DNA from: Amniculibacterium aquaticum
GTDB taxonomy: Bacteria; Bacteroidota; Bacteroidia; Flavobacteriales; Weeksellaceae
DNA length: 64,000 nt
Assembly: GCF_003852705.1 (NCBI RefSeq)
Contig: NZ_REFA01000001.1
Location: 1-64,000, forward strand
Reading direction: 5' to 3'
Shown here: in pieces, positions 5,074-53,377 of the stretch
Layout of the letters: each line of letters opens with the position of its first letter
How positions within the stretch are numbered: the first letter of the stretch is position 1
Made by a program: the position numbers and the translations under genes
The notes under the pieces: generated by a model
Seen by the model: the letters and a program-made list of their open reading frames with translations, nothing else
Database searches by the model: none
Told to the model about the DNA's origin: nothing

Positions 5074-5156
5074 ACGAACGACCAAGTGTATTACCTTTGA
5101 GCGTGAAAGAAGGGTTTAATATTGAACCCAAATTGTTAAACAATTAAATTGATAAA

Positions 5157-5540
5157 ATGACAGAAGCAATATTATGGTCCAAAGTAGAATTTTTTTTTGA
5201 AGAACATTTTCAAACCGAAAAACATCCTTCGATAGACACTCTTTTGTATCTGATTGGGATACAAGAGTTGGGCAGTGGCATGCAGAAATACAGCAAAGAT
5301 GACAAAATAAACATCTTGCACATTGCGGTTTGCCGTCTGTTAGAGCCTTTTGGTTATTACAAATTCACCCATTATGACGACGATGGCTATCCTCATTTTG
5401 TGGAATTGCAAACCTTACCGGAACTGAAACCCAACGAGCAACAAATCCTCATGAAAAAAGCCATCATTCAGTACTTTATGGACGAAGAATTGTTTGATGA
5501 AGAAACCCAGCGAGAGATTCAAGAAAAGTTGGAGGGGTAA
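5157..5540 (+). CDS. Conserved-looking hypothetical protein, 127 aa
   Basis: An acidic 127-residue cytoplasmic protein with no signal peptide or membrane segment. The central part (IGIQELGSGMQKYSKDDKINILHIAVCRLLEPFGYY) looks like two amphipathic helices, and the C-terminus (FDEETQREIQEKLEG) is a charged helix. I do not recognise a family, though the codon use and strict ATG start argue that it is a real gene. It follows ptrB by 83 bases and ends in a strong hairpin terminator at 5594-5646. It might be cotranscribed with ptrB. Confidence 0.7.
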   Translation: MTEAILWSKVEFFFEEHFQTEKHPSIDTLLYLIGIQELGSGMQKYSKDDKINILHIAVCRLLEPFGYYKFTHYDDDGYPHFVELQTLPELKPNEQQILMKKAIIQYFMDEELFDEETQREIQEKLEG

Positions 5541-5593
5541 TAAAGAGCTTTATTTCATCTGTTTGTATTAAAGACAAAACACTCTCATATCCA

Positions 5594-5646
5594 TTGCGGT
5601 TAAATTCTTAAAATGATGGGTTTTAAGAATCTAACCGTAATTTTTT
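5594..5646 (+). terminator. Long-stem intrinsic terminator
   Basis: The arm at 5594-5613 (TTGCGGTTAAATTCTTAAAA) pairs with 5621-5640 across a 7-base loop, 18 of 20 positions being complementary, and a T6 run follows. It separates the 127-aa gene from the histidine kinase. Confidence 0.75.
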
Positions 5647-5714
5647 GGCTCAATATTTGTTTAATGAATGTTAAAAGTCGTAATTTTAACAAAAATTCAT
5701 TAAATTAAAAGTCC

Positions 5715-7262
5715 ATGAACAATAAATTCATCCCGGTCATCTCTGTATTCATGACGATTTCACTCATAGTTTTCGTTACGCTACAGGTGTATTGGCTCAA
5801 GGGATATTATCGTGCATTGGAAGAGCAGTTCTCCAACAGGGTCAATACCGCCATGGAAAGTGCTGCCGTAAAAATTTCAGAAATTGAAGCCGAAAAATAC
5901 ATGAACCAAGATTTTAAAAATTTTGGAAACACCATTGTCAAAGGCTCCAACCAACCGTCACAAACCTACATACAGCAAAATGCCGATTCGGCGAATCGGA
6001 AAACAATAACTTTTCAATCGAAAATTATTGAAAACCAAAACATTCCTATTTCAACACAAGGCGATAGCCTGAAAACCACAAAAGTCTATACCGATGAGGG
6101 TATTTTGAAATTTAAAAAAAGCAACAACCTCGAATTGCTCACCACCAAGATGAGCCAGGACTTCAAGGACAATACCTATTCCTTAAAAGAATTTGTAAAG
6201 TTGGATGCCAGCAATTTGCCCATAGAAAAAAGGGTGAATAAAAAAGTATTGGATTCTGTTTTGACCTATGAACTGAAGCTCAACGGCATCGACACTCAGT
6301 TTGGGTATGGAGTTTTTGACAAGCATCAAAAACTAACCTCAATGACCGATGAGGTTTATAAAACGGAAAAGGACAAAACCAATTATTCGTATCCGCTGTT
6401 TTCCGACAGCAAAGACAGGATATTATACACCCTTAACTTGGTTTTCCCCAAAAAAGATTATTCCTTAGCCAAAAACAACTTGCCCCAACTTTTGGGGACT
6501 TTTCTTTCGTTGCTCACCATTTTGGGCATCTACATCATCTCCATCAGTTATATGATGAAACAGAAGAAAATTGCGGATATCAAAACGGATTTTATCAACA
6601 ACATGTCCCACGAGTTCAAGACACCGTTGGCAACCATATCCGTAGCGACAGACTCTTTGGCAAACGACAAAATAGCAACCAATCCGGACAAGGTCAGATA
6701 TTACGCTACCCTCATCAAACAAGAAAATCTGAGGATGAAAAAGCAGGTAGAAAATGTTTTGAATATGAGCAAGTTGGAGCGAAATGAAGTGCAACTTCAC
6801 CTGAAAGAAACCAATGTTAGAGACTTAATCAAAAGTGTTTCTGAGTCCGTAGGTCTCATTGTTGCTCAAAGAAACGGATCGCTAACCCAGGATTTTAATA
6901 CGGAAAAATACATTTTTAAAGTAGATGAATTTCACCTGTCCAATGTATTGGTCAATTTGTTGGATAATGCCAATAAATATTCTCCAGAAGCACCAGAAAT
7001 AAAGGTGAAAACGAAAAATGAAGGTCAGTTTTATGTGATAGAAATTTCCGATAAAGGCATGGGAATGGAAACTCAAAATAAACTGAAAATTTTCGAAAAA
7101 TTTTTCAGAGAAGAAACCGGAAATATCCACAATGTGAAAGGACAAGGACTTGGACTTTCGTATGTGAAAAAAATAATAGAATTGCACAAAGGTCAGATTA
7201 TTGTAGAGTCCATTAAGGGCAAAGGATCAACCTTTATTGTGAAAATACCAATGAATTTATAA
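5715..7262 (+). CDS. Sensor histidine kinase
   Basis: A 515-residue membrane sensor. TM1 is about residues 5-28 and TM2 about 256-281, enclosing a periplasmic sensor domain of roughly 225 residues without a recognisable fold. The HisKA box has the phospho-acceptor His299 in NNMSHEFKTPLATI. The HATPase domain shows the N box (LVNLLDNANKYS), DKGMGM and GQGLGLSYVKKI. It autophosphorylates and should pass phosphate to the response regulator 18 bases downstream. This arrangement is common in Bacteroidota, but the signal and regulon cannot be deduced from the sequence. Confidence 0.93.
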   Translation: MNNKFIPVISVFMTISLIVFVTLQVYWLKGYYRALEEQFSNRVNTAMESAAVKISEIEAEKYMNQDFKNFGNTIVKGSNQPSQTYIQQNADSANRKTITFQSKIIENQNIPISTQGDSLKTTKVYTDEGILKFKKSNNLELLTTKMSQDFKDNTYSLKEFVKLDASNLPIEKRVNKKVLDSVLTYELKLNGIDTQFGYGVFDKHQKLTSMTDEVYKTEKDKTNYSYPLFSDSKDRILYTLNLVFPKKDYSLAKNNLPQLLGTFLSLLTILGIYIISISYMMKQKKIADIKTDFINNMSHEFKTPLATISVATDSLANDKIATNPDKVRYYATLIKQENLRMKKQVENVLNMSKLERNEVQLHLKETNVRDLIKSVSESVGLIVAQRNGSLTQDFNTEKYIFKVDEFHLSNVLVNLLDNANKYSPEAPEIKVKTKNEGQFYVIEISDKGMGMETQNKLKIFEKFFREETGNIHNVKGQGLGLSYVKKIIELHKGQIIVESIKGKGSTFIVKIPMNL

Positions 7263-7280
7263 ACACCAAAAAATAACCTT

Positions 7281-7967
7281 ATGAACAGCAGAATATTATT
7301 AGTAGAAGACGACCAAAGTTTTGGAGCCGTACTAAAAGATTACCTGAGCATCAATAATTTTGATGTTACCTTAGCAACCGATGGCGAGCAAGGCCTGAAA
7401 GCCTTTACTGATGGCGAATTCGACATCTGCATTTTCGATGTCATGATGCCTAAGAAAGACGGTTTTTCTTTGGCTGAAGATGTGAAAAAATTAGACAAAG
7501 CCACGCCCATTATTTTCCTTACCGCAAAAAATTTGAGAGAAGACATACTGAGAGGTTACCAAATCGGTGCCGATGACTACATCACCAAGCCGTTTGATAC
7601 CGAATTGTTGTTGTACAAGATAAAAGCAATCTTGCAAAGAAGTACCGCAACCGATGCAGAAGATCAAGAACAATTCAAAATCAGCAACATGCTTTTTGAT
7701 TCCATTTTAAGGCAATTAAAGGTTCAGGATAACGAGTACAAGCTATCGCCAAAAGAAAACGAATTGCTGAAATTGTTGTGCCTGCATAGAAACGATTTTA
7801 TGCCAAGAGATTTGGCACTCAGAAAAATTTGGAAAAAAGAAAATTATTTCACCGCCAGAAGTATGGATGTGTACATTGCAAAATTGCGTAAATACCTTAA
7901 AGACGACGATGGATTGGAGATCATCAATGTCCATGGTGAAGGGTTCCGTTTGCTGGTGAAAAACTAA
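7281..7967 (+). CDS. OmpR/PhoB-type response regulator
   Basis: A 228-residue two-domain regulator. The receiver domain (residues 1-120) has the acidic pair in VEDD, the phospho-acceptor Asp53 in CIFDVMMPKKDG, the switch Thr in FLTAKN and Lys in DDYITKPF. The C-terminal winged helix (about 130-226) ends in SMDVYIAKLRKYLKDDDGLEIINVHGEGFRL, typical of OmpR/PhoB proteins. It lies 18 bases after the histidine kinase, so the two form an operon and a cognate pair. A hairpin terminator follows at 7977-8004. Confidence 0.95.
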   Translation: MNSRILLVEDDQSFGAVLKDYLSINNFDVTLATDGEQGLKAFTDGEFDICIFDVMMPKKDGFSLAEDVKKLDKATPIIFLTAKNLREDILRGYQIGADDYITKPFDTELLLYKIKAILQRSTATDAEDQEQFKISNMLFDSILRQLKVQDNEYKLSPKENELLKLLCLHRNDFMPRDLALRKIWKKENYFTARSMDVYIAKLRKYLKDDDGLEIINVHGEGFRLLVKN

Positions 7968-7976
7968 AATGAATTG

Positions 7977-8004
7977 AAAGACTGATAATTTTCAGTCTTT
8001 TTTT
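7977..8004 (+). terminator. Intrinsic terminator of the two-component operon
   Basis: AAAGACTGA at 7977-7985 pairs with TCAGTCTTT at 7992-8000 over a 6-base loop and runs into a T-tract. It lies just after the response regulator stop. Confidence 0.75.
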
Positions 8005-8026
8005 ATCTGAAAATAAATTTAATCTT

Positions 8027-8034
8027 TACCTTTG
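8027..8034 (+). promoter_or_regulatory. -7 element for the Cys/His-rich gene
   Basis: TACCTTTG matches TANNTTTG and ends 8 bases before the ATG at 8043, directly after the preceding terminator, so the metal locus has its own promoter with a very short leader. Confidence 0.5.
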
Positions 8035-8042
8035 CACCAATT

Positions 8043-8438
8043 ATGGCAAAACATCTGCACATTTGGCTTTTGATTTTATGCTTGGGACTGTTTGTCATTC
8101 CCAAACAATATTTCTTGGGTCAAAATGTAGGCGAGTCTTGCTGTGCGGTATCGATTACCCAGCAAGATCATTGCAAGTCAGATATCAAAGCAGGACACAA
8201 GTCCGATCATAAATCCGACTCTTGTCATAAAGATGGTAAAAACAAAAACCACTGTACAGGAAACTGCAACAATTGTGATATTTGCCATTTTTCAATAGCT
8301 GTTTTCCAAGTTCCAAATCATCAGGAGATGCCTGATCTGGCCGTGGATTTCAAAAACAAAAAGGAGGACTTTTCTTATGTTACTCCAGAATTTTCAAGTA
8401 TTTTTTCAAAAATTTGGCAACCGCCAAAAATAGGTTAA
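8043..8438 (+). CDS. Exported Cys/His-rich protein (possibly HYC_CC_PP-type)
   Basis: A 131-residue protein with an N-terminal membrane/signal segment (LHIWLLILCLGLFVI). The middle is packed with metal ligands: a CC pair (ESCCAVS), a run of Lys/His/Asp (AGHKSDHKSDSCHKDGKNK) and CTGNCNNCDICHF, then a C-terminal WQPPKIG. The CC and PP landmarks resemble small Bacteroidota proteins that databases call HYC_CC_PP family; that match is from memory and uncertain. It lies 169 bases upstream of a TonB-dependent receptor with a heavy-metal-associated domain, so a role in periplasmic copper or zinc binding is likely (inference). Confidence 0.75.
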   Translation: MAKHLHIWLLILCLGLFVIPKQYFLGQNVGESCCAVSITQQDHCKSDIKAGHKSDHKSDSCHKDGKNKNHCTGNCNNCDICHFSIAVFQVPNHQEMPDLAVDFKNKKEDFSYVTPEFSSIFSKIWQPPKIG

Positions 8439-8505
8439 TCTAATAATTTACAGCACAAATTATGCATTTTTCAAATTGAAATTTGAGAGTGTAACGATTT
8501 GGTAT

Positions 8506-8578
8506 TCACAGATTTGTTTTGAAATTTGTGACTTAAAATGAATTTTATTACTATTTTATGTATCAACGAAATGTTGAT
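8506..8578. promoter_or_regulatory. Two dyads upstream of the metal receptor gene
   Basis: TCACAGATTT (8506-8515) pairs with AAATTTGTGA (8522-8531) at 9 of 10 positions, and ATCAAC (8562-8567) pairs with GTTGAT (8573-8578). Both lie in the 169-base gap before the receptor ATG at 8608. They could be operators or leader hairpins; no metal-regulator consensus was recognised. Confidence 0.35.
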
Positions 8579-8607
8579 GAAAAAGTTAACCTATTTATGA
8601 TTTTAAA

Positions 8608-11037
8608 ATGAAAACAATACAAAAAACTTTATATATTTTCGTCTTATTACTTAGCACATTTGCATTTGCACAAAGCACCAAAATCGAAGCTTGGGTGAAT
8701 GGAGACTGTGGGATGTGTAAAGAAAGAATCGAAAAAACCGCCAAAAAAAATGGAGCAACATCCGCAAATTGGAACGACGAAACCAAGATGCTGAATGTGG
8801 AATTCGATGCCGCTAAAACTTCTTTGGATAAAATATTAGAAGACATTGCTGCAGTGGGACACGACAACGAAAAGTACAAAGCCAAGGATGAGGTGTACGA
8901 AAAACTTTCAGGATGTTGTCATTATGAAAGGGTAAGTCCGCCTGTAAAAAACTCAACTGAAAGTCCTAACAATGCAACACCGGTTGAAGTGAAGAAAGAA
9001 GACGACGATCCTCATGCCGGTCACGATCATGCAAAAAAAGAAGAAGTGGATGAACATGCGGAACACGATCATAAAAAAGATCAAATAAGAAATTCTAACA
9101 TAGAAGGCGTAACCGTAACCAAAGCACAAGCAACAACGGCTTTGAGCAGAAAGTCTGCTGATTTAACCTTTAAAATTGATCAAAAAGAATTGCTAAAAGC
9201 GGCTTGTTGTAACCTCTCTGAAAGTTTTGAAACCAATGCCACTGTAGATGTGTCTTTTTCCAATGCGGTGACAGGTGCGAAGCAGTTGAAAATGTTAGGA
9301 CTGGATCAAAAATATACGGCACTAACCAAAGAATTATTGCCAGAAATCAGAGGTTTGGCTTCTGCGTATGGACTTAATTTTATCCCGGGAAGATGGATCG
9401 GAGGCATTCAGTTGACCAAAGGAGGAAGTACCGTAACTAGCGGATACGAAGGGATTACAGGACAGATCAATACCGAATTGTTGAAATTTAACAAAACTCC
9501 CGAAACCAATCTGAATGTTTTTGCCGATTTCCAAGGGAGAACCGAGCTGAATCTCACGCAAACTTCACAAATCAATGAACACTGGGACCAAAGTATTTTG
9601 CTTCATGGAAACGGAACTTTTGGAAACATCGACGATAACAACGATGGTTTTTTGGATAGACCAAAAGGAAATCAGTTGAATGCTGCCTATCTTTTGAATT
9701 TTAACGACTTAGGACATTCAGGATTCGGATCTCATTTCGGGATTACTTTTTTGAAAGACAATAGAAAAGCAGGACAAACCAACTACGATTGGAATTTACC
9801 ACAAAGTCAGCAATCGGCTTATGGAGTAGGGATTGATACGCAAAGATTCCAAGTGTGGAACAAAACAGGTTTCGTATTTCCGGGAAGACCGTATCAGAGT
9901 TTGGGCTGGATGAATCAGTTTACCTATCACCAACAAAATAGCTTTTACGGCCTTAGAAATTATAACGGAAATCAGAAAACTTTTTATTCCAATTTAATTT
10001 ATGAAGACATGATTGTGAATACCAATCATAAGTATAAATTGGGAGCAAGTTTCTTAATGGACCTATTTGATGAAAATTATTTGACTCAATTGTACAAAAG
10101 AACCGAAACCGTTCCTGGTGCATTTGCAGAATATACCATGACTGGGGACAAGTTCACTTTGGTAGCAGGTGCCAGAGTCGATTTTCATAATTTGGCAGGC
10201 ACACAATTTTCGCCTCGATTGAATTTGAAATACGATATTTTACCTAAAACCATTGTGCGATTGTCCGCAGGAAAAGGTTTTAGAACGGCCAATGTGTTTG
10301 CAGAAAATCAACACTACTTTGCATCCAATAGAGTGGTGGACATTCACGCAAACGGAGGTAACATTTACGGATTGAAGCCGGAAGTTGCTTGGAATTACGG
10401 AGCAAGTCTTCAGCAAGAGTTCAAACTGTTCAACAGAAAAGCAACTTTGGTAGCCGATTTCTTCAGAACCGATTTCCAAAATCAAGTTTTGGTCGATTTG
10501 GATAACCCACAAAAATTATCCATTTATAATCTGGACGGAAAATCTTTTGCCAACTCTTTCCAAACACAGTTGGATTTTTCACCCGTTAAAAATTTGGATC
10601 TAAGGGTGGCGTATAAATATTACGATGTACAAGCCGATTACCACAGCGGAAGAAAAGAAGTGCCGTTTATGGCGAAAAACAGAGGTTTTTTTAATGCTGC
10701 TTATGCTACCAACAAAAATGCAAAAGACGCTTTTTGGTCTTTTGATACCACATTGCAATTTGTAGGAAAACAAAGATTACCGGATACGACATCCAATCCT
10801 ACAGCTTTTCAGTTGGCACCTTACTCCAAAGAATATGTTACACTGAATGCACAAGTAGCGTATCAGTTCAATAAAAATATCAGAGCCTATTTTGGTGGCG
10901 AAAACCTTACCGGTTACGAACAGATGAATCCAATTATGGATGTTAAAAATCCATTTGGAAGTTATTTTGATAGCAGTTTGATCTACGCTCCGATCATGCC
11001 GGCAAACTTCTATGTTGGTTTTGATGTGAAATTTTAA
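8608..11037 (+). CDS. TonB-dependent receptor with N-terminal HMA domain
   Basis: An 809-residue outer-membrane receptor. After a signal peptide ending at FAFAQ (residue 22) comes a ferredoxin-like heavy-metal-associated domain (about 24-92) with the metal site C34-G-M-C37, a CCH motif at 103-105, and a His/Asp/Glu-rich linker around 130-155. The plug domain follows (about 165-285, including another CC pair and FIPGRWIGGIQLTKGGSTV) and then a 22-strand-type barrel ending in aromatic DVKF. Usual Bacteroidota receptors start with a carboxypeptidase-regulatory-like domain; here the metal-binding domain takes that place. TonB-driven transport of copper or another soft metal complex is the likely role. 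The upstream Cys/His-rich gene supports this. Intrinsic terminator at 11082-11115. Confidence 0.9.
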   Translation: MKTIQKTLYIFVLLLSTFAFAQSTKIEAWVNGDCGMCKERIEKTAKKNGATSANWNDETKMLNVEFDAAKTSLDKILEDIAAVGHDNEKYKAKDEVYEKLSGCCHYERVSPPVKNSTESPNNATPVEVKKEDDDPHAGHDHAKKEEVDEHAEHDHKKDQIRNSNIEGVTVTKAQATTALSRKSADLTFKIDQKELLKAACCNLSESFETNATVDVSFSNAVTGAKQLKMLGLDQKYTALTKELLPEIRGLASAYGLNFIPGRWIGGIQLTKGGSTVTSGYEGITGQINTELLKFNKTPETNLNVFADFQGRTELNLTQTSQINEHWDQSILLHGNGTFGNIDDNNDGFLDRPKGNQLNAAYLLNFNDLGHSGFGSHFGITFLKDNRKAGQTNYDWNLPQSQQSAYGVGIDTQRFQVWNKTGFVFPGRPYQSLGWMNQFTYHQQNSFYGLRNYNGNQKTFYSNLIYEDMIVNTNHKYKLGASFLMDLFDENYLTQLYKRTETVPGAFAEYTMTGDKFTLVAGARVDFHNLAGTQFSPRLNLKYDILPKTIVRLSAGKGFRTANVFAENQHYFASNRVVDIHANGGNIYGLKPEVAWNYGASLQQEFKLFNRKATLVADFFRTDFQNQVLVDLDNPQKLSIYNLDGKSFANSFQTQLDFSPVKNLDLRVAYKYYDVQADYHSGRKEVPFMAKNRGFFNAAYATNKNAKDAFWSFDTTLQFVGKQRLPDTTSNPTAFQLAPYSKEYVTLNAQVAYQFNKNIRAYFGGENLTGYEQMNPIMDVKNPFGSYFDSSLIYAPIMPANFYVGFDVKF

Positions 11038-42130: not shown

Positions 42131-43168
42131 CTATCTCCCTATTCTCGATGCCCGACTTAGGATTTCAAGATTTATTTCGTTTATGAGTTCCGTGCCTTCG
42201 TAGATGAAACCGGTGTACAGCTGAAGTAGTGTGGCGCCGGCATCCAATTTTTCCATGGCATCTTTTGCAGAATGTATGCCACCAACCCCAATAATTGGGA
42301 AGGTACCACCGCTTTTATCGTGTAAATATTTGATGACTTTTGTGCTTCTTTCTTTTATGGGTTTGCCACTCAAGCCGCCGTTGCCAATTTCGTTGAGCCT
42401 TTCGGTGCTTGTCCTCAGTCCTTCTCTGTTGGTCGATGTATTGGTAGCCACAATGCCGTCGATTTTGGTTTCAGCAACCAGGTCTATAATTTCATCCAAT
42501 TGTCCGGTGTTAAGATCCGGAGCGATTTTTAGCAATATAGGCTTAGGATGGGCCTTGGTATTGTTTATTTTCTGTACTTCCGTGATCAGCTCTTTTAGGT
42601 AGTCGGCGTCTTCCAATTTAGCATGGCTGCTCACATTGGGGCAGCTCACATTCAGTACAAAATAATCTACGAAAGGATGAAGCCCTTCAAAACATTCCAA
42701 ATAATCTTGGGTATAATTTTCTGGGGCGGTAGTGGTGTTTTTTCCAATATTCCCACCGATAATTATTTTTCCTTTATTTTTTTTTAGTTGATGAATGGCA
42801 GCTGCTAAACCCTCATTGTTAAAGCCCATTCTGTTGATGATACCTCCATCTTCAATCAGTCGGAATAATCTTTTCTTGGGATTCCCGTCCTGAGCTTTTG
42901 GCGTAACGGTACCGATCTCTACAAAGCCAAAACCAAGGTCTGCCAATTCGTTGTAGAGCACCGCATTTTTATCAAATCCGGCAGCCAGACCAATCGGATT
43001 TTTAAATTTCAAACCAAAAACTTCCCGCTCCAATTTTTTGCTTTCAACGGGTTTTGGTAAGAAAAGTTTGGCCATAAAACCAAAGTTTTTCAAAAGAGAA
43101 AAGGTTAAATGGTGAGCTTGTTCTGGATCTAATTTAAAAAGTAACGGACGAATAATGCTTTTGTACAT
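42131..43168 (-). CDS. pyrD: Dihydroorotate dehydrogenase (quinone)
   Basis: A 345-residue class 2 DHODH: an N-terminal amphipathic segment ([29 protein letters not shown]) for the membrane and quinone, then the FMN barrel with [26 protein letters not shown] (catalytic Ser region) and [21 protein letters not shown]. It oxidises dihydroorotate in pyrimidine synthesis and feeds electrons to the quinone pool. It lies just outside the repeat that bounds the RiPP locus. Confidence 0.96.
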
Positions 43169-43308
43169 CGAAAAAAAGTTTCACAAAATTAAAGATTTAT
43201 ACAGTCAGCTTCCAACGATTATGATAGAATTTTACAATGATATAATTTATGAACATAGAATAAACGATTTTCAAGGAAAAGATTTAAATTTGATTGGTCG
43301 TTATTCCC

Positions 43309-43509: not shown

Positions 43510-44844
43510 TTAATTCATGGTTTTGAAATAGACTAGATAATTTAAAATGAAACGACCAAAAATTAAATTATATTTGGATTGTGCCAAGTTTCCTTCAATA
43601 GACATCAGATTATTTTTCGCAGTGTTGAGTTCATAAATGTTGATTTTTCCTGCCAAAAAACTTTTCTCGGCGTAAGAAAACGACAATTGTGTAGCTTCCA
43701 TCGAAGCTAAAATTGCCTTATGATTTTTCAGTTTAGACTCGTAATCCAAATAGCTTTTTTGTACATTCGACCGAAGTTGTTGTTTGGTAATTTCCAAATT
43801 ATTTTCTGCAATTTTTTGATTGATGTATCCTTGTTGTTGCTGTAATTTTGCATTTCCTTTGTTGAAAACAGGTACGCTTACAGAAACCCCAATTTGCTGA
43901 CCAAAATTATTGTTGTACTGTTGCCAAAAAGGTACAGAACTATTGAAATCTTTATTGAAATATTGAAAGAAAAAAGAACCGACACCCGAGGTAAGTGTTA
44001 CGGAAGGAAGATAGTTGGTTTTGCTAATTTCTGTTTGTTGCTTTGCGGATTGTATTTTTTGCTTTGCAGCTTGTACACTTGGATTGTTACGATAGGCTTC
44101 TGCAATAAGTTTTTCTATATCAGTATTTTGCATTGTGTAATCAGATGATTCTAGTAAATCCGAAACATCAAAATCCTGATAATTTTCTAATTGCAACAGT
44201 GAGGTTAGTTGCAACTTAGCTTTGTCTATTTCATTAATAGCGTTTTCCAACAATTGGTTTTTTCGTATCATTTCGGCGTAAGATTCTTGCTCTATAGCTT
44301 TTGAAGTAATACCAGCTTCGGTTGTAAGCCTTGTTTTTTCGTACATTTTTTGAGCGTAGTTTTTGGCTTCCAAATTTATTTTGTAAATCTCTTTTTGTAA
44401 AAGTATTTGTAGAAAATTTTGTATGAGCTGCAAATTTATTTCGTACTTCGTGTTTTCGAAATCGTATTGGGCAACGGAATAATCGGACTTGTTTTTAGCT
44501 ATTGTTTTAGAAATTCTCCCACCGTTGTATAAGTTTATACTTGCATTGGCAGAAAGGTTGTGCGAAAAATTATCGTTTCTCTGTAAAGTTCCCAATAGCA
44601 CATTTTGCCCAAAATTCATGCTACCGTTAGCGGAAATACCGACAGTTGGGAGATAATCTTTTTGCGAAATTTTGAGTATATTTTCTTGTGCTTCTATATT
44701 TATTTTGGATTGCTTTATTCTCAAATTATTGTTTTCCGCATAGCTGATGCAATCCTCAAGCGTCCACAATTTTTGCGATGATATTCGTTTGGAAATCATT
44801 AAAAAAAATAGGATAATACATAATTTTAAATTCATTTTAAACAT
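43510..44844 (-). CDS. TolC-family outer-membrane efflux protein
   Basis: A 444-residue TolC-like protein with an N-terminal hydrophobic signal (LCIILFFLMISKRISSQ). Two OEP domains of long helices run through the sequence (about 25-210 and 220-440), with the repeated form SYAENNNLRIKQSKINIEAQENI and ANLEITKQQLRSNVQKSYLDYESKL. It should supply the outer-membrane channel for the ABC/HlyD exporter. The ATG overlaps the HlyD stop as TGATG, so translation is coupled. It is the last gene of the RiPP operon. Confidence 0.9.
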   Translation of the reverse strand: MFKMNLKLCIILFFLMISKRISSQKLWTLEDCISYAENNNLRIKQSKINIEAQENILKISQKDYLPTVGISANGSMNFGQNVLLGTLQRNDNFSHNLSANASINLYNGGRISKTIAKNKSDYSVAQYDFENTKYEINLQLIQNFLQILLQKEIYKINLEAKNYAQKMYEKTRLTTEAGITSKAIEQESYAEMIRKNQLLENAINEIDKAKLQLTSLLQLENYQDFDVSDLLESSDYTMQNTDIEKLIAEAYRNNPSVQAAKQKIQSAKQQTEISKTNYLPSVTLTSGVGSFFFQYFNKDFNSSVPFWQQYNNNFGQQIGVSVSVPVFNKGNAKLQQQQGYINQKIAENNLEITKQQLRSNVQKSYLDYESKLKNHKAILASMEATQLSFSYAEKSFLAGKINIYELNTAKNNLMSIEGNLAQSKYNLIFGRFILNYLVYFKTMN

Positions 44845-46148
44845 CAAGCTTGGTATCCTAATAATTTTCTGAATTGATAAAAAAGTCTTTGTAATAATCG
44901 CAAATCTTGGGTTACAATTTCGGCATTTCCACTTAGTTCTTTGTCGAAAGTAAGCGTTTTATTATAAGAAGTATGCAAACCTTTGGGCAGGATAACCTCC
45001 ACAAAATAATTTCCTTTTTCGTCCGGAGACAATGCCATATTTTGTACCGTGCCTTGGACAATACCGTATTCTTGGTATCGGAAATTATTTAGTTTTATCA
45101 GTACCTTTTCTCCGTTTACAATTTTTCCGGCATTGGTTGCCGGGACAAACATTCTGCCTACCAATCTTTGGTTTTCACTAGGCAAAATGGTAAATATAGC
45201 ATCTCCGGATTTTACCATTTGGTTTTCGCCCCACATTTGTTGGTAACTAACCTTACCTTTGGTAGATGAGGTGATGAGATAGTTGAGTTCCCATTGTTTC
45301 AAAGATTTCCTAAGTTGCTCCAACGATTGTGTACTTTGTAATTGGTAGTTCAGTACATCTTTTTGTAAAGTATTATGGGTATTGCTTTTGTTTTTATACA
45401 GATTGCTAATGGTTTCCTGTGTTTGTGATACCGACAGTTGTAGGTTTCTAACATTTTGTTCTTCTTGTAGAATTTTTATTTTTTCGTTTTCCATTTCTAG
45501 TGCAGATAGTACACCTTGCTCGAAAAGATGTTGGCTACGGTCATAATTTTTTTTGGACAATTGAAATTTTGTTTGTTCCAACCCCAATTGTTGTTGTAGT
45601 GTTGCCATCCTAGTTTTGGTTTCCGCTTCGTTTTGGGAAATTGCAAGTTGTTCGGGAGAGTAGGGTTGTAGTTTTTGAAAAGATTTTTCTTCTTGCAAGG
45701 CTTTAGCAAAAACATTGTAGTCCATTTGCAATTCTCCTAGTTTTAGGTGCGAGGTTTTGTTCAGAGGAAAATTGGCTACATTGCCAGTTTGCATATCGTC
45801 TAAAATATTTTTCAGCAGGAGTACATCTTGGTAATTAGCCGAAGATTGCAGCACCATCATTATTTGGTTTTTGTCCACCATTTGTTGGTTAGCAATGTAT
45901 ATTTTTTCTATTTTGGCTGTGGTTTTGGCAAGTAGTTTTTCCGGTGCATTTTCGGTGGTGATGATGATGGGTGCAGGTACAAATTCCGGATATTTTATGA
46001 ACCAACTCATCATGATAACCATAACAAGTATTGCTAGAAGTATGGTGTTTCCCCAACGGATAAGCCAATGAGGTGGTTGCGAAAGAATGTCTTGTACTTC
46101 TTCCGAACGAAGTTGGATATTGTCTAGTATATCTCGGTTAGTTTCCAA
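44844..46148 (-). CDS. HlyD-family membrane-fusion (adaptor) protein
   Basis: A 434-residue protein with one membrane helix at about residues 33-50 (ILLAILVMVIMMSWF), a biotinyl-lipoyl-like part (EKLLAKTTAKIEKIYIANQQMVDKNQ) and a long coiled-coil hairpin (about 150-285, Gln/Glu/Lys-rich), then a beta-barrel region with GRMFVPATNAGKIVNGEKVLIKLNNF. It bridges the C39 ABC exporter and the TolC channel. It overlaps the ABC gene by 11 bases and the tolC-like gene by 1 base. Confidence 0.9.
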   Translation of the reverse strand: METNRDILDNIQLRSEEVQDILSQPPHWLIRWGNTILLAILVMVIMMSWFIKYPEFVPAPIIITTENAPEKLLAKTTAKIEKIYIANQQMVDKNQIMMVLQSSANYQDVLLLKNILDDMQTGNVANFPLNKTSHLKLGELQMDYNVFAKALQEEKSFQKLQPYSPEQLAISQNEAETKTRMATLQQQLGLEQTKFQLSKKNYDRSQHLFEQGVLSALEMENEKIKILQEEQNVRNLQLSVSQTQETISNLYKNKSNTHNTLQKDVLNYQLQSTQSLEQLRKSLKQWELNYLITSSTKGKVSYQQMWGENQMVKSGDAIFTILPSENQRLVGRMFVPATNAGKIVNGEKVLIKLNNFRYQEYGIVQGTVQNMALSPDEKGNYFVEVILPKGLHTSYNKTLTFDKELSGNAEIVTQDLRLLQRLFYQFRKLLGYQA

Positions 46149-48408
46149 GTTCTAATTGGTTTTTTATTAATCTATAATATTCGCCTTTTTGTGCGACAAG
46201 TTCTCTGTGGTTACCTTGTTCTACCACTTTTCCTTTGTCCAGCACAATTATATTGTCGGCATTTTTCACGGTTGAAAGTCTATGGGCGATAACAACAGCA
46301 GTTTTGCCAAGAAAAAATTGTTCTAGATTTTGCATAATTACTTTTTCGTTATTGGCATCGAGAGAACTGGTTGCTTCATCAAAGAAAATATTTTCCGGTG
46401 ATTTGTACACTGCTCTTGCAATAAAAAGTCGTTGTTTTTGTCCACCACTTATCCCAATCCCTTCATTTCCAATTTTGGTATTGTAACTTAGCGGGAGTTC
46501 TTCTATAAAATCTTTTATGTTGGCAATTTCTACGGCTTTTTTCAGTTTGTTTTTATCGATATTATCTTCGCCAATGGCTATGTTTTGGGCAATGGTATCA
46601 TTAAAAACATATCCCTCTTGCATTACCACACCACAATGATCTCGCCAAGCTCTGGGAGAAATGTTTTTCAGTTGGGTATTACCTAATTTTATTTCGCCTT
46701 GGTTGGGTTGGTAAAATTTCATTAGAAGTTTTAGCAAGGTAGTTTTTCCGCTACCACTAGCACCAACTATGGCGGTGGTTTTTTGGTAAGGTATAACAAG
46801 GTTTAGGTTTTCGAAAACAAATTGGTCGGCTCCTGTGTATCGAAAAGCGAGATTGGAGATTACAATATCTTTTTTCGGTATTTCGGATAGGTATTGTTCT
46901 TCTGCATTTTCTTCATCGGTTTTATCGTGTATTTCTTTTAGCCTTTCTAGGGATATTTTGGCATCTTGAGTTTGGCGTACAAAATCCACCAATTGCAATA
47001 GAGGACTGTTGAGTTGCCCGATAATGTACTGTACCGAGAGCATCATACCTAGGGTAAGATTACCACTGAGCACCAATTTTGCCGAGAGAAAACTTACCAA
47101 AATATCTTTTATTTGGTTAATAAAATTACCTCCCACCGATTGCCATTGCTCCAAAGAAAGGGATTTTATCCTTAATTTGAAAAGTCGTATTTGCAGAAAC
47201 TCCCAACTCCATCTTTTTTGTTTTTCGGCGTTGTGCATTTTTATTTCCTGCATTCCGTTTATCAGTTCTATTACCTTGCTTTGTTCTTGCGAAACCTGCG
47301 AAAACCGCTTGTAGTCCAACTCTTTTCTTTTACCTAGGAAAAACAAAATCCAAATGGTATAAAGTGTAGCACCTGCAATATAGACCAAAAACAACAAGTA
47401 ATTGTAAAACAACAATATAACGGAATAAATTAACAAATTAACCAAAGAAAACAAAGTATTGAGGGAAGAGCTGGTTAGCAATTGCTCTATCCTGTGGTGG
47501 TCGTTAATCCTTTGCATAATATCGCCAGTCATACGAGTATCGAAAAAGCTGATAGGCAGACGCATGAGTTTGATAAAAAAATCCGAGAGTATGGAAATAT
47601 TAATACGGGTAGATAGATGCAGGAAAATCCAACCACGGATAACTTCCAGACCTGTCCTACCTACAAAAAGCATGAGCTGTGCCAACAATACCAGGTAGAT
47701 AAAATTGAGGTCTTGGTTTTGTATGCCCACATCTACAATACTCTGGGTAAGAAATGGTACGATGAGCGATAGCAAACTCCCTGCCAATAAGCCAATTGCC
47801 AATTGCGACAACAACGATTTGTAACGAAACAAATACCGAAACAGGAAAGAAAAACTAGCTTTGTCCTCAGTATTGTCCAACTCGTTTTTGGAGAAAGCAG
47901 GGGTGGTTTCTAGTAGCAAGGCGATACCTTCTTCGGTATTTTCGTTGGCGTTTTCGCCTATCCATCGTTTCAGAAATTCTTGTTGGGTGTAGGTAATAAG
48001 ACCGTAACTGGGATCGGAAATTTTTATTGTACAATCGGTCGTGTCATATAAATTACCACGCTGTTGTTCTCTTTTTACCTTGTCTTTTTTACTTTTTACT
48101 TTATACTTTTTACTTTGTACAACATCATACACCACTACAAAATGTTGCTTGTCCCAATGTACAATACAAGGCAGGGGTACTTCTTCTACCAAAGTTTTGA
48201 AATCTATCTGCACTCCCAAACTCCTGAAACCCATTTTCTCGGCAGCTTCGCTTAGCCCTAACAAAGAGCTTCCCTCACGAGTAGTTTCTGAAAGATTACG
48301 AATTTCTTGTAAAGGCATGGTTTTGCCGTAATACTTGGCAATAATCCGTAAACAAGTAGGTCCGCAGTCTTTGGTGTCGGGTTGAAGGTAGTTGGGAAAG
48401 GGTTTCAT
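46138..48408 (-). CDS. C39-peptidase-containing ABC exporter
   Basis: A 756-residue exporter. The N-terminal C39 peptidase (1-150) has catalytic Cys15 in DTKDCGPTC, His89 in KQHFVVVYD and Asp132 in IKISDPSYG; it cuts leader peptides after a double Gly. Six membrane helices follow (about 200-480), then the ABC domain with Walker A GASGSGKTT, signature ISGGQKQR, Walker B NIFFDEATSSLD and the His switch IAHRLST. Residues about 98-127 are a Lys-rich insert not expected in the domain (see findings). It overlaps the GwsS stop as TAATG. The start at MKPFPNYLQ is chosen because upstream codons are inside the preceding gene. Confidence 0.93.
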   Translation of the reverse strand: MKPFPNYLQPDTKDCGPTCLRIIAKYYGKTMPLQEIRNLSETTREGSSLLGLSEAAEKMGFRSLGVQIDFKTLVEEVPLPCIVHWDKQHFVVVYDVVQSKKYKVKSKKDKVKREQQRGNLYDTTDCTIKISDPSYGLITYTQQEFLKRWIGENANENTEEGIALLLETTPAFSKNELDNTEDKASFSFLFRYLFRYKSLLSQLAIGLLAGSLLSLIVPFLTQSIVDVGIQNQDLNFIYLVLLAQLMLFVGRTGLEVIRGWIFLHLSTRINISILSDFFIKLMRLPISFFDTRMTGDIMQRINDHHRIEQLLTSSSLNTLFSLVNLLIYSVILLFYNYLLFLVYIAGATLYTIWILFFLGKRKELDYKRFSQVSQEQSKVIELINGMQEIKMHNAEKQKRWSWEFLQIRLFKLRIKSLSLEQWQSVGGNFINQIKDILVSFLSAKLVLSGNLTLGMMLSVQYIIGQLNSPLLQLVDFVRQTQDAKISLERLKEIHDKTDEENAEEQYLSEIPKKDIVISNLAFRYTGADQFVFENLNLVIPYQKTTAIVGASGSGKTTLLKLLMKFYQPNQGEIKLGNTQLKNISPRAWRDHCGVVMQEGYVFNDTIAQNIAIGEDNIDKNKLKKAVEIANIKDFIEELPLSYNTKIGNEGIGISGGQKQRLFIARAVYKSPENIFFDEATSSLDANNEKVIMQNLEQFFLGKTAVVIAHRLSTVKNADNIIVLDKGKVVEQGNHRELVAQKGEYYRLIKNQLELGN

Positions 48409-49499
48409 TATTTTTTTACCAAATCTTGCATACCGTAATATTGTATGGCTTTTTGTTTTAGAGGATTTGTACTCCATTCTTCCCATTCTCCTGTATATGG
48501 ATTGTAACCGCATTTCAATGGTTTAGATGTATCCAAACCATCTTTGTCTGTATGGGTTCTTTCTGTGTAAGCTCTGCAATCTGTACAGATGTAGCGAAAC
48601 TCACAATCTTTACAGACTTCTATTCTATCTTTGGTAAGGTTCCAATATTTTTTGAAATCTTTATGATTAAGTGCTTCTTCTAGTGTAGTATCTTTTATAT
48701 TGCCAAAGCTTTGTGGCATACTTGGACAATTGCGAATATTACCCTCTGCATCTATAGAAATTTTTTTGTGAAGGCAGGAGTTTTTACACATTGATTCAAG
48801 TGAGAATGTACGGTTTAAATTAAAATTTTTGGGTAAGACACTTCCGCAACTTTCTGGAATAAAAATAATATTTTCAATAATATTTATTCTTATACTTGAA
48901 AACTCCTTATGATATTTTTCACTTCCTGAATGAAAGACAATATCCAATAATTTACTTGTGATAATTCCTTTATTTTCTGTGAAGTATCGAAATAATTCGT
49001 CACTATATTTCAAAATGATTGAAATTTCATTAACACAAGAATCGTTCAGAAGTTTTAAATTTTCTAATATTTCACTAATTTCAGTATAGTTTAATTGATT
49101 TGAAAATCTTAGTTGTATATATTTTATTTTCGAAAATATTATTTCGTTTATAAGACTTTTGTTGAAAAAATCACTATTTTTAAAATCAATAATAAAATAT
49201 TCAATATTACTAGGACTCTCAACAAAATACGGCTTGTATACAAATTTATTAAGTTCTTCTTCTGATTCAACAAAAAATCCCAAATTGTTATCGGTTATGA
49301 AATTAATGTATTCTTCAATTATAATGTAATCTTCATCATTTATTTTTTCTTTAAGAACAGAATAATTAGTTTTTTGATTTAATATGATATTTAACATAGT
49401 ATTTGGTATAAATTGCAAAAAACCATTATCAGTATCATATATAAGCGATTTTTTAACGCCTTTTGTAATGTTTACAGAGTCGTGTATTTTCAAAAACAT
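48408..49499 (-). CDS. gwsS: GwsS: SPASM-domain peptide maturase of a grasp-with-spasm system
   Basis: A 363-residue protein. The C-terminal SPASM domain is clear: Cys238/Cys242, Cys258, then C296-x2-C299-x5-C305-x2-C308 and Cys330 with GYNP, residues that bind auxiliary Fe-S clusters in radical SAM maturases. The N-terminal 230 residues have a TIM-barrel-like alternation, but the first Cys is at 155 and no CxxxCxxC motif exists, so no canonical radical SAM cluster. This matches the family called grasp-with-spasm SPASM protein, recognised from memory. It lies next to the ATP-grasp gene and the exporter. Its codon composition is distinctly AT-rich. Confidence 0.88.
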   Translation of the reverse strand: MFLKIHDSVNITKGVKKSLIYDTDNGFLQFIPNTMLNIILNQKTNYSVLKEKINDEDYIIIEEYINFITDNNLGFFVESEEELNKFVYKPYFVESPSNIEYFIIDFKNSDFFNKSLINEIIFSKIKYIQLRFSNQLNYTEISEILENLKLLNDSCVNEISIILKYSDELFRYFTENKGIITSKLLDIVFHSGSEKYHKEFSSIRINIIENIIFIPESCGSVLPKNFNLNRTFSLESMCKNSCLHKKISIDAEGNIRNCPSMPQSFGNIKDTTLEEALNHKDFKKYWNLTKDRIEVCKDCEFRYICTDCRAYTERTHTDKDGLDTSKPLKCGYNPYTGEWEEWSTNPLKQKAIQYYGMQDLVKK

Positions 49500-49502
49500 A
49501 GA

Positions 49503-49664
49503 TTAATATATTAGAGAGTAATATTTGTTTGAACGGAATATTTTAGTATTATTACTCTTAATTACCGTATTTTTAGTATATTTAACTGTGTTAATATTAC
49601 CACAAAGCTTCCATTCTTGTAATGTAAATGAAATTCCTTTAATATCAATATTGTTTTTTTTCAT
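49503..49664 (-). CDS. Possible 53-aa basic small protein between gwsG and gwsS
   Basis: An ATG frame of 53 residues starting MKKNNIDIKGISF and ending YYSLIY; the stop is 3 bases from the gwsS ATG. It is very basic with many Asn, Lys and Thr and only one Glu, one Asp and one Cys. It has no double-Gly leader site and no signal peptide. It may be a leader-like or regulatory small protein, a second modified peptide, a decayed precursor, or chance. A TTG start at 49694 would add 10 residues. The gap between gwsG and gwsS (240 bases) is otherwise unexplained. Confidence 0.35.
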   Translation of the reverse strand: MKKNNIDIKGISFTLQEWKLCGNINTVKYTKNTVIKSNNTKIFRSNKYYSLIY

Positions 49665-49739: not shown

Positions 49740-50702
49740 TTATAACAAATCAGCAATATATTTTTCAATTTGGAAATTTCCAAGAATACTAATGTTGTGA
49801 AATTGACCTAATGGGTTTATTTCTAAAAAATAATATTTATCTTTTGATTTTATAAAGTCCAAAGTACCACACATCAAACCTAATGAATTAGAAAGTTTAT
49901 AAATGTTGTTTTTTATACTTTGAGGTAATTCATAGATAGAATATTTTTTTGTGATTTCTTTCCCTTTTCTATTATCAATTTCTTCGGTAGAATCAAAACA
50001 AGCAACAGACCATATTTTTTTTTGAAAAAAGAAAACTCTAATCTCATATTCTCTATTTATTTTCTCTTGTAAAAGTGTAGGAATTAAGTTTTGATTTTTC
50101 CCTTCTAAATCGCTTAAATACACTTCTTTAGTATAATTAAGATACATGCCAGTTTCGACAAACACTGGTTGTACTTCAGAAATCGATTTAGTTATAATTG
50201 ATTTTTTAGAATTTACGATATTTTCAACTATTGTTAACTCGGTTGTAATAATACTTTCTGGTGTAATAAAGCCTAATTGTTTTGCTTTGTGAAGCACTTC
50301 AAGTTTATTAACTTTTTTTTGGGATAAATTTCCATAAATTTTTACACCTAATTGGGATAAATAATAAAAAATAAAATGTATCGTTTCCTTAATTTCAGAA
50401 TTATAAAACTTTGCTAAATTCAAATCTATGTCTTGATCTATTTTTTTATATGATACCACGCCATTCCTATAATAGACAGATGTTACTTCATTCAGATTTA
50501 GTATTTCATCATCAATTGAAACTAGATAATTATCTTTTTGAAAATCAAAATATAAAGAGTTGATAAGCATGTTTTCACTAAACCTTAAAAACTGCTTATT
50601 TTGATACGATAACCATCTACATATCTCATCTGTAATAGTATCGTTATCTACTGAAATTACTAGTATTATTCTATTTTTATCAGGTATAGTCTTTTCTTCC
50701 AT
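49740..50702 (-). CDS. gwsG: GwsG: ATP-grasp peptide maturase
   Basis: A 320-residue ATP-grasp ligase of the MvdD/MicB-like class. The N-terminal pre-grasp domain has VISVDNDTITDEI, the central part EKINREYEIRVFFF and KSIITKSI (ATP-site Lys), and the C-terminus GTLDFIKSKDKYYFLEINPLGQ with metal-binding Glu294 and Asn296. Relatives make ester or amide crosslinks between Asp/Glu and Ser/Thr/Lys in graspetides (microviridin family). Its coupling here with a SPASM protein is the hallmark of grasp-with-spasm systems. The ATG overlaps the end of the preceding gene by 37 bases. It is AT-rich. Confidence 0.88.
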   Translation of the reverse strand: MEEKTIPDKNRIILVISVDNDTITDEICRWLSYQNKQFLRFSENMLINSLYFDFQKDNYLVSIDDEILNLNEVTSVYYRNGVVSYKKIDQDIDLNLAKFYNSEIKETIHFIFYYLSQLGVKIYGNLSQKKVNKLEVLHKAKQLGFITPESIITTELTIVENIVNSKKSIITKSISEVQPVFVETGMYLNYTKEVYLSDLEGKNQNLIPTLLQEKINREYEIRVFFFQKKIWSVACFDSTEEIDNRKGKEITKKYSIYELPQSIKNNIYKLSNSLGLMCGTLDFIKSKDKYYFLEINPLGQFHNISILGNFQIEKYIADLL

Positions 50703-51742
50703 TCATCTACATCTTCATTTGTTGAAACTGCATGTATTATTGTTTTTTGTGTTGGAAAAATAAAATCATTATTTTTTAATAAAAAAAGGCTTTTTTTACT
50801 TTCAGACATTATATTATTTAGACCAATTTTTTTTCTAGATATATTAGTATGTTCAATTTTTTCATCAATACTTTGGTTTCTATTTTCGGGAAAGTAGTAT
50901 TTTGTAATATAGCAACATTCATCGGTATTTCCTGCTTTTATCATTGTGACAGCATGTGTAACATCACCTATAACAAAACCATGAGGAGCAAAAGCTTCAG
51001 TATGAAAATTATTAGTCCCATCGTTTAAATCTATTAAAAAACCTGCAATATATGGTGTTATTTTTCCATTATTAAGAGCCTTTTCTATTTCTTTTGAAAA
51101 ATTGACTTGCTGTGGGCTATATTTATTTTTTTGTGCTTGATGCCAAATAATATAATAAAACTGGTGGATTAATGGATTATTTTTAAAAGAATTTACTCCA
51201 ATATCATATTCATTTGGGAAACCATTTTTTTGTATAAGTTTCAATAATTTTGTAGCAGCAATACTGTCACTAGTCGTTATTTCTTTTTTATATTTTGTGT
51301 AGTCTCCAATGGATAAATTTCTATAATGCTGGTCGATTACAAATAAAGAATCAAATGACTTTTTCAAAGAAAAATTTATTTTGATTTTACAATCATCTTT
51401 TTTTATTTTTTGTAAATCTTCATTTTGTGCTAAAAATTCATCATCAAAACTATACCCCATACATTTTAGTAATTGGTATTTTTCTTCTACCCATTTATTA
51501 TCTTTTGTTTTTATAGCAACTTTCAGACTGTTGTAAATATCCACCGCATGTGGATTTTTGAAAATACTGAAAGCACTTTTGTAATTTACAAGTGCAGAAT
51601 CTAATTTGTTTTCCAATATAAATTCTTCTGCACTATTAATTTTTTCATAATATTGAAGCAAAATCGGATTTTTTAACTCATAATTTTGTGAGTAAAAGCA
51701 GGAAAAAGAAAAAAAAGTAAATAGTAATATTATTTTTCTCAT
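50666..51742 (-). CDS. Exported DUF6624-like protein in the RiPP operon
   Basis: A 358-residue protein starting MRKIILLFTFFSFSCFYSQN, with a signal peptide ending in SQ. Residues about 28-110 look TPR-like (AEEFILENKLDSALVNYKSA). The middle has a pattern I associate with DUF6624: D-Q-x2-R (VIDQHYRNL), DSIAATKLLKLIQKNGFPNEYDIGV and LIHQFYYIIWHQ. The match is tentative. The C-terminal third (HGFVIGDVTHAVTMIKAGNTDECCY) is unplaced. It may act in the periplasm on the exported peptide, in immunity, or in sensing. It lies between the precursor and gwsG, separated from the precursor by a hairpin. Confidence 0.75.
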   Translation of the reverse strand: MRKIILLFTFFSFSCFYSQNYELKNPILLQYYEKINSAEEFILENKLDSALVNYKSAFSIFKNPHAVDIYNSLKVAIKTKDNKWVEEKYQLLKCMGYSFDDEFLAQNEDLQKIKKDDCKIKINFSLKKSFDSLFVIDQHYRNLSIGDYTKYKKEITTSDSIAATKLLKLIQKNGFPNEYDIGVNSFKNNPLIHQFYYIIWHQAQKNKYSPQQVNFSKEIEKALNNGKITPYIAGFLIDLNDGTNNFHTEAFAPHGFVIGDVTHAVTMIKAGNTDECCYITKYYFPENRNQSIDEKIEHTNISRKKIGLNNIMSESKKSLFLLKNNDFIFPTQKTIIHAVSTNEDVDEWKKRLYLIKIE

Positions 51743-51782: not shown

Positions 51783-52025
51783 TTAATTACAAGGGGTATT
51801 CGTGATTTTATCATTGATGTACACTACATGTCCCTCACTTACTACATCTCCGGTGTATGTATATGTATAGCAATTACCAAAAAAATCCGCATCACATCTT
51901 TCACCTCCACTTGTATAGGTCGGAGCAGCAATAAAGGACGGGGCAGGACCTCCCTCACCACCGATTACACCATTTAGCTTTTCGCTTTGTAGTTTATAGT
52001 TCTCCAACTTTTCTAACTTTTTCAT
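51783..52025 (-). CDS. RiPP precursor peptide with a double-glycine leader
   Basis: An 80-residue peptide. The leader (1-23) is MKKLEKLENYKLQSEKLN plus VIGG, with the hydrophobic LN-x2-I-Gly-Gly pattern cut by C39 peptidases. The core (24-80) begins EGGPAPS and contains Cys44, Cys52 and Cys79, a Thr/Tyr cluster (NCYTYTYTGD) and acidic residues (ERCDADFFGN, VVSEGHVVYINDKI) that could be crosslink partners for the ATP-grasp ligase. It is the first gene of an operon with the maturases and exporter. I do not recognise a named subfamily for the core. Confidence 0.85.
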   Translation of the reverse strand: MKKLEKLENYKLQSEKLNGVIGGEGGPAPSFIAAPTYTSGGERCDADFFGNCYTYTYTGDVVSEGHVVYINDKITNTPCN

Positions 52026-52065: not shown

Positions 52066-52099
52066 CAAATATAAATTGTGAAATAAAATAAAACGACAA
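52066..52099 (-). promoter_or_regulatory. Promoter of the RiPP operon
   Basis: On the minus strand TTG (52099-52097), 23 bases, TATATTTG (52073-52066), ending 40 bases before the precursor ATG. Spacing is at the long end of the accepted range. The -33 box touches operator box 1. Confidence 0.45.
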
Positions 52100-52157: not shown

Positions 52158-52538
52158 ATGGCACTAGGTAAAAAACTTCATAATCTTCGTATTGCAAAAA
52201 ATCTCACCAAAGAAGGCGTTGCATTGGAATTAGGCGTGTCGAAAACTGCGTATGGTAAATGGGAAAACGATATTGCAAAACCCAATTTCCAAAACATTTC
52301 TACCATTTGCAATTTTTACAACATTAGTAAAGATGAACTCATGGAAGAAGAAAAAAATATCAACCAAAACAACAATACCTTTAACAATAGTCCAAATGTA
52401 ATAAATTCACCAAATCCAACTTTCAATTATACCATCTCGGACGAAATTATACAAAAAATTACGGATAACCAAAACAATATATCAGAATTAGTCCAAAATC
52501 AAAATATCTTATTACAAAAAATACTCCAACAGAAGTAA
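52158..52538 (+). CDS. XRE-family helix-turn-helix regulator
   Basis: A 126-residue protein. The N-terminal HTH (about 5-62) reads KLHNLRIAKNLTKEGVALEL then SKTAYGKWENDIAKPN, with YGKWE a typical XRE recognition end. An Asn-rich linker (about 68-92) leads to a C-terminal helix of coiled-coil character (DEIIQKITDNQNNISELVQNQ) suited to dimerisation. It is divergent from the RiPP operon and faces two repeated boxes, so it probably controls both genes. There is no ligand domain, which suggests control by concentration or by another protein. Confidence 0.9.
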   Translation: MALGKKLHNLRIAKNLTKEGVALELGVSKTAYGKWENDIAKPNFQNISTICNFYNISKDELMEEEKNINQNNNTFNNSPNVINSPNPTFNYTISDEIIQKITDNQNNISELVQNQNILLQKILQQK

Positions 52539-52870: not shown

Positions 52871-53377
52871 ATGAACCAAGAGCTTCACGATTTTTTTACC
52901 AAAGACCATCGACGGTTAGAAAGCATTCTAGATAGTGCCATTGCAGATCTGTCGAATATCGACATGGATTTGTACAGCCAATTCCGAGTGGGTTTACTTA
53001 CCCATATTAAAATGGAGGAGAAAATATTTTTTCTAGCCGCCCAAAAAGCCAACAACAATGTACCACTACCATTTGCTCCACAGCTAAGGTTGGAGCACGG
53101 TGCCATTACGGCTTTGCTGGTGCCATCGCCAACACCAGAAATTGTTAAGGTCTTAATGCATGTCTTGGATATCCACGATGAGGTCGAAGAAAAGCATGGC
53201 GGCATGTACGAGGCTTGTGAAAAACTGACCCACCACGAAACTCAAGCACTGCTGGATCAGTTGCGTGCCGTAACTCCTGTGCCTGTACATCCTCATAACG
53301 ATGCTCCTATCGCTTTGGAGGCTGCTAAAAGAGCTTTGCTAAGAGCCGGGTACGATTATGACGCATTGGTGAGTTGA
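52871..53377 (+). CDS. Hemerythrin-like HHE-domain protein
   Basis: A 168-residue four-helix-bundle protein. Candidate di-iron ligands are visible in order: HDFFTKDHRRLE, THIKMEEKIFF (HxxxE), LRLEHGAI and DIHDEVEEKHG. The C-terminal 40 residues (PVPVHPHNDAPIALEAAKR) extend beyond the bundle. Such proteins bind oxygen or NO or store iron; the role here is not defined. It stands alone between the RiPP boundary element and glyS, with its own promoter element. Confidence 0.85.
   Translation: MNQELHDFFTKDHRRLESILDSAIADLSNIDMDLYSQFRVGLLTHIKMEEKIFFLAAQKANNNVPLPFAPQLRLEHGAITALLVPSPTPEIVKVLMHVLDIHDEVEEKHGGMYEACEKLTHHETQALLDQLRAVTPVPVHPHNDAPIALEAAKRALLRAGYDYDALVS

Follow-up and report, generated by a model that had tools for sequence, protein, structure and literature searches.

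Graspetide clusters that encode a SPASM protein beside an ATP-grasp ligase are already in print as 'branch 5' of Makarova 2022 (PMC8939145), a set of SPASM-associated ATP-grasp loci with accessory proteins. Our statements on that paper, and on Carter 2026 (PMC13097080), refer to the excerpts available of each. Makarova and colleagues counted 174 graspetide precursor families. Besides the 'LPL' family, they found unrelated small proteins upstream of the SPASM gene, and they describe the leaders of other graspetides as carrying a Pro-hydrophobic motif that is absent in branch 5. Within the excerpts of Carter 2026, every member of 'group 14' has a SPASM protein, and a peptidase-type transporter often co-occurs; DUF6624 proteins are reported in graspetide groups 18, 20, 23 and 42, and the rosaritide ligase needs a co-encoded partner that is PpiC-like. 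The cluster analyzed here is of the branch 5 type and apparently matches group 14. In the literature searched, including these excerpts, we found no characterized product for SPASM-associated graspetide clusters.

The window, meaning the whole 64,000-nucleotide stretch that was analyzed, covers positions 1 to 64,000 of contig NZ_REFA01000001.1 of Amniculibacterium aquaticum (GCF_003852705.1). At 51783-52025 an open frame of 80 residues runs on the minus strand, and the plus strand of the same interval contains stops. This ORF is quite probably the graspetide precursor of a SPASM-associated ('grasp-with-spasm') operon, a reading based on the operon content and the conservation of Thr38, Thr58 and Asp60. 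Counted on the translation, a double glycine at residues 22-23 ends the leader (residues 1-23), leaving a predicted core of residues 24-80. A previous sequence-only reading had described three cysteines, the segment NCYTYTYTGD and several Asp and Glu after residue 23, and all are present as described: the cysteines at 44, 52 and 79, the segment at residues 51-60, and the acidic residues E24, E42, D45, D47, D60, E64 and D72. The sole lysine of the core is K73. Around the end of the leader the sequence is GGEGG (residues 22-26, positions 51948-51962), so that cleavage after Gly26 is possible besides cleavage after Gly23. On inspection the leader lacks proline and hence a Pro-hydrophobic motif. 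TAnnTTTG is the Bacteroidota -7 promoter motif, and a candidate box of this pattern, TATATTTG (52066-52073, minus strand), lies 40 nt before the precursor start; 0.09 such matches are expected by chance in a 132-nt stretch. A single precursor of this family is present in the genome. The sequence-only reading had recognized no named subfamily, which holds for the curated precursor families (NCBIfam, Pfam), none of which reaches its cut-off, but not for the system type, which is in print (excerpts of PMC8939145 and PMC13097080). The NCBIfam family TIGR04139 scores 21.9 bits against a cut-off of 40, and Cys44, Cys52 and Cys79 do not match the CxxCx5CxxC pattern in its name; the Pfam family PF14406 gives a weak match under its cut-off.

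Eight closely packed genes on the minus strand form the operon, with the precursor at its head and then, in order, a DUF6624-like protein, an ATP-grasp ligase, a 53-residue protein, a SPASM protein, a C39 ABC transporter, an HlyD-type adaptor and a TolC-type channel. The ligase (49740-50702) is of the GwsG type. It matches TIGR04192 best of six NCBIfam families (E 2.5e-57), with 194.6 bits against an equivalog cut-off of 230; because it falls below that cut-off we file it as a divergent TIGR04192 relative, and the operon type is assigned from the layout and the TIGR04193 partner. Its relatives in the PDB at E<=0.01 are four graspetide-type chains only, 5ig9, 7mgv, 7m4s and 5ig8, of which we take 7mgv to be CdnC and 7m4s to be AMdnB, and its motif FLEINPLGQF aligns with FLEINPVGEF of 5ig9. 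The Peptidase-C39 ABC transporter (46138-48407) exceeds the cut-offs of PF03412 (the C39 domain, 107 bits against 22), PF00664 and PF00005; as listed, its ORF extends to 48513, and translation probably begins at an internal ATG close to where the SPASM gene ends. Its probable role is leader removal and export. The HlyD-type adaptor (44844-46148) and the TolC-type outer membrane channel (43510-44847), both on the minus strand, are over the cut-offs of PF13437 and PF02321, respectively. A divergent XRE-type gene on the plus strand (52158-52538; PF01381, HTH_3, over cut-off) is, from its place, a possible regulator of the operon.

The operon lies in an island that both congeners examined lack. 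Genes at 42131-43168 and 52871-53377 flank it here and are adjacent in both congener genomes examined. Alignable flanks end at 43200 and resume at 52886, so that about 9.7 kb in the window, with the complete operon and the XRE gene inside it, replaces 0.1-0.5 kb in the congeners; the island was either acquired here or lost in the congeners. The G+C content of the operon is 0.32, against 0.385-0.394 in the surroundings, and that of the ligase, X355 (the DUF6624-like protein) and SPASM genes is 0.25-0.27. Within the same operon, the ABC and HlyD genes have values of 0.37-0.38 and the precursor 0.395; the unevenness perhaps reflects a mixed origin of the operon parts.

Precursor matches at E<=0.01 were found in 20 of 320 genomes of the bacterial family, and the 20 stretches around these matches together with the window make up 21 loci. 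The ligase is matched in all 21 (fragmented in L058 and L066), the SPASM protein in 20 (absent in L066), a homologue of the small protein in 16 and X355 in 15. This recurrence, always beside a ligase match, marks the ORF as real rather than a chance frame. The L066 cluster (4104-11018) carries three precursor/X355 pairs beside its fragmented ligase and no SPASM match, an arrangement suggestive of decaying or repeated copies. A precursor alignment was picked by hand from 23 candidates. Left out were L069, L071, L073 and the second precursor of L065, which share leader similarity only, and the near-duplicate L055; the 18 that were kept and one from a separate search (L078, Chryseobacterium gregarium) give 19 rows. 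These precursors come from a single bacterial family, mainly from Chryseobacterium, and column counts refer to the 18 rows that remain after collapse at 90%.

One donor-acceptor set is kept across the cores and the cysteine columns are not. Asp60 and Gly41 are present in all 18 rows, Thr38 in 17 (Ser in one), Thr58 in 16 (Ser in two) and Tyr69 in 17; residue 57 is always aromatic (Tyr 13, Trp 3, Phe 2). The idea of a graspetide precursor with hydroxyl donors, put forward in the sequence-only reading together with a search for homologous cores, is supported by the operon and by Thr38, Thr58 and Asp60: relatives exist, and the Thr and Asp core positions are conserved in them. Its suggestion that several Asp and Glu serve as acceptors stands for Asp60, the sole invariant acidic residue, but weakens for Glu42, which is Glu in 11 rows (Gln in three, Ser in three, Thr in one), and for the other acidic residues, which vary. 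Cys44 is found in four rows, Cys52 in seven and Cys79 in eight, and every core has at least one cysteine. With the core alone (residues 24-80) compared against 300 shuffles of each relative's own core, 14 of the 18 relatives outscore all shuffles or all but one, and for one further relative six of the 300 score as well. The remaining three are barely or not above their shuffles (20, 29 and 141 of 300 as good), and they are included through the multiple alignment rather than pairwise similarity. Searched with the alignment, 31 of the 320 family genomes give matches at E<=0.01; the 20 matches at E<=1.3e-20 are the 19 rows and one near-duplicate, and the other 16 are weak and mainly across the leader, with no clear new member in those genomes. 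Among 395 genomes of the phylum, the same search matched one, the genome of the window itself.

The SPASM protein (48408-49499, minus strand; GwsS type) passes the TIGR04193 cut-off (274 bits against 175) and that of the Pfam SPASM family, and it lacks the radical-SAM motif CX3CX2C. The motif is absent from this protein and 19 relatives (20 of 20) and from another 45 TIGR04193 matches (45 of 45), which include five under cut-off and two, L148 and L166, with an incomplete N-terminus; 65 proteins were scanned in total. PF04055 has ten matches in the genome, none at the SPASM gene. The authors of the TIGR04193 family may have noted the missing motif already. Eight cysteines, all from position 218 on, are invariant in an alignment of 26 SPASM proteins. 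The structural model has a mean pLDDT of 63, with the SPASM part not modelled. The top four structural neighbors of residues 1-79 are RRE domains, namely lasso B1, PbtF and two from TbiB1 (Z 8.1-8.7, rmsd 2.3-3.2, 75-79 of 84-88 residues aligned; block pLDDT 66-88), and the N-terminus thus models as a putative leader-binding, RRE-like domain. It has no sequence match in the PDB. The Foldseek list is headed by MccB and includes TbiB1 and the radical enzyme SuiB, none at E<=0.001. The barrel part resembles one half of a TIM barrel and has no clear relatives, and radical SAM enzymes, enolases and others are mixed among its matches at Z of about 5-7. Taken together, the missing motif, the RRE-like model and the leader without proline suggest leader recognition by the SPASM protein on the ligase's behalf; the role of a leader-presenting Fe-S partner fits it better than that of a radical thioether enzyme. 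A wider proposal, which we make tentatively and hold to be somewhat doubtful, is that a former radical enzyme, dead for radical-SAM chemistry, still Fe-S-binding and RRE-bearing, serves as a scaffold that has taken over leader recognition from the ligase; one ligase type could thus tolerate very varied cores, including those that bear cysteines.

X355, a predicted secreted DUF6624-like protein (50666-51733, minus strand), was assigned by profile-profile comparison. By inspection it has a signal-like N-terminus, and its N-terminal part is helical and TPR-like in a model with a pLDDT of 85. Pfam gives no match for X355 itself, and among 15 relatives DUF6624 appears as a weak match in one and over cut-off in none. 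Against 17 DUF6624 proteins, hhalign returns a probability of 98.5 for the whole protein (E 3e-15) and 97.1 for the C-terminal part, with 0.2 and 0.4 for unrelated pairs; proteins similarly placed in four other clusters give 96.6. In some clusters the small protein is replaced by 306-residue lipoprotein-like proteins that are distant X355 relatives and agree with Makarova's 'cluster 23'; in L007, L015, L016 and L017 they lie directly before the SPASM gene, upstream of position 1470 on the match strand. Foldseek on the X355 model yields no match at E<=0.001, and in a second structural comparison residues 20-109 return TPR-type matches at Z<=7.4, within the noise of helical models; X355 has no sequence match in the PDB. 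In a separate set of 18 loci, X355 occurs without nearby graspetide genes in five, so the protein is not necessarily specific to the pathway. In three of these five, L082, L083 and L088, around 6974-8062, an X355-type protein follows the same 800-residue gene and graspetide genes are absent, which suggests a stand-alone chromosomal form. The orphan copies do not group as one clade, and a check for self-resistance through a duplicated housekeeping copy found one X355 copy in the genome. The signal-like N-terminus places X355 outside the cytoplasm, where action on the uncut precursor is not expected, and a role in self-protection or late processing is more likely than one in crosslinking.

A pathway can be sketched from these parts. 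Through its RRE-like N-terminus, the SPASM protein would bind leader residues 1-23 and present the core to the ATP-grasp ligase, which would phosphorylate a core carboxylate and couple it to a threonine hydroxyl. The likeliest link across the family would join Thr38 to Asp60 and close a ring across 23 residues; members that bear Glu42 could form a second, nested link between Thr58 and Glu42, giving a ring-in-ring hairpin. The C39 domain of the transporter would then cleave after Gly22-Gly23, the peptide would leave through HlyD and TolC, and X355 would act outside the cytoplasm. The three cysteines would be a variable decoration, perhaps a disulfide formed after export.

Other accounts give the cysteines the leading part. 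The operon could make a radical-SAM thioether peptide, in which the SPASM enzyme links core cysteines to alpha carbons and the ligase is a second modifier. Thioethers have been suggested for branch 5 clusters in the excerpted text of PMC8939145, and the invariant cysteines of the SPASM alignment agree with such a role, as does the placement of the core cysteines: by inspection, 16 of the 18 cores have a cysteine no more than eight residues from the Thr-x-Asp turn that holds Asp60, 13 have one 3-7 residues N-terminal of the aromatic residue, and three have one directly after the Asp. Yet CX3CX2C is missing from every protein scanned, the SPASM protein is not among the PF04055 matches of its own genome and the cysteine columns of the core vary, and we regard this account as very unlikely. 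The thiol chemistry that the sequence-only reading had raised, an idea near to this account, is unsupported as a family trait, because no cysteine column is conserved and the adjacent SPASM protein lacks the motif, although it may occur in this particular peptide. We give an equally small chance to a disulfide-stabilized bacteriocin with a double-glycine leader, in which the ligase contributes little or no modification and the cysteines count for most. Weak matches to ComC and bacteriocin families among the 19 aligned precursors fit that leader, and seven of the eight cores with a C-terminal cysteine have two further cysteines, with a single cysteine in eight of the ten others. As a sign of cysteine covariation this last pattern was set aside, since the cores concerned are related to each other. 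Against the bacteriocin, ten of the 18 cores lack the C-terminal cysteine and eight have a single one, yet Thr38 and Asp60 are kept, and a ligase match accompanies the precursor at all 21 loci, though in pieces in two.

A different kind of doubt concerns activity: the cluster could be decayed or silent in its own genome. The low G+C of the ligase, X355 and SPASM genes against about 0.39 around them, and the fragmented relative in L066, could be taken that way. However, the window's frames are open, and the family matches of the ligase and the SPASM protein span their full length; decay or silence seems to us the least probable of these accounts. We retain the graspetide precursor of a SPASM-associated operon as the preferred reading. 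TIGR04193 is over cut-off in 136 of the 320 genomes of the bacterial family, which makes the operon type a common one, yet we found no characterized product for it in the literature searched. The motif-less SPASM partner is in our view more interesting than the precursor: if it is not a radical enzyme, thioether predictions for such clusters are misplaced, and whether the ligase needs its SPASM partner becomes the key question. The aligned core singles out Thr38, Thr58, Asp60 and Glu42; from the same alignment, replacing the cysteines is predicted to be tolerated.

Set beside the described systems, within the excerpts available of the two papers, the locus shares with branch 5 its occurrence in Bacteroidota, the pairing of an ATP-grasp ligase with a TIGR04193 SPASM protein, a small protein immediately upstream of the SPASM gene, and a secreted protein, X355, that looks like Makarova's 'cluster 23'. 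It also shares varied precursors with an MKKL leader, conserved Thr/Ser and Asp/Glu and, often, cysteine. It differs in the small protein, which here has 53 residues (49503-49664, minus strand, between the ligase and SPASM genes) and occupies the position of the LPL proteins but lacks the LPL motif; profile comparison with LPL-bearing proteins is weak and not significant (best E 0.012). With group 14, which was itself drawn from a synthetase network, the locus has in common the SPASM protein and the peptidase-type transporter. The ligase is related by sequence to those of the chryseoviridin and microviridin graspetides, which we take to be CdnC, MdnB, MdnC and AMdnB. The core is unlike theirs, the leader lacks the Pro-hydrophobic motif, and SPASM and DUF6624-like partners are present here. 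Rosaritide (excerpts of PMC13097080) offers a precedent by analogy for a ligase that depends on a partner, and here that partner would be the SPASM protein.
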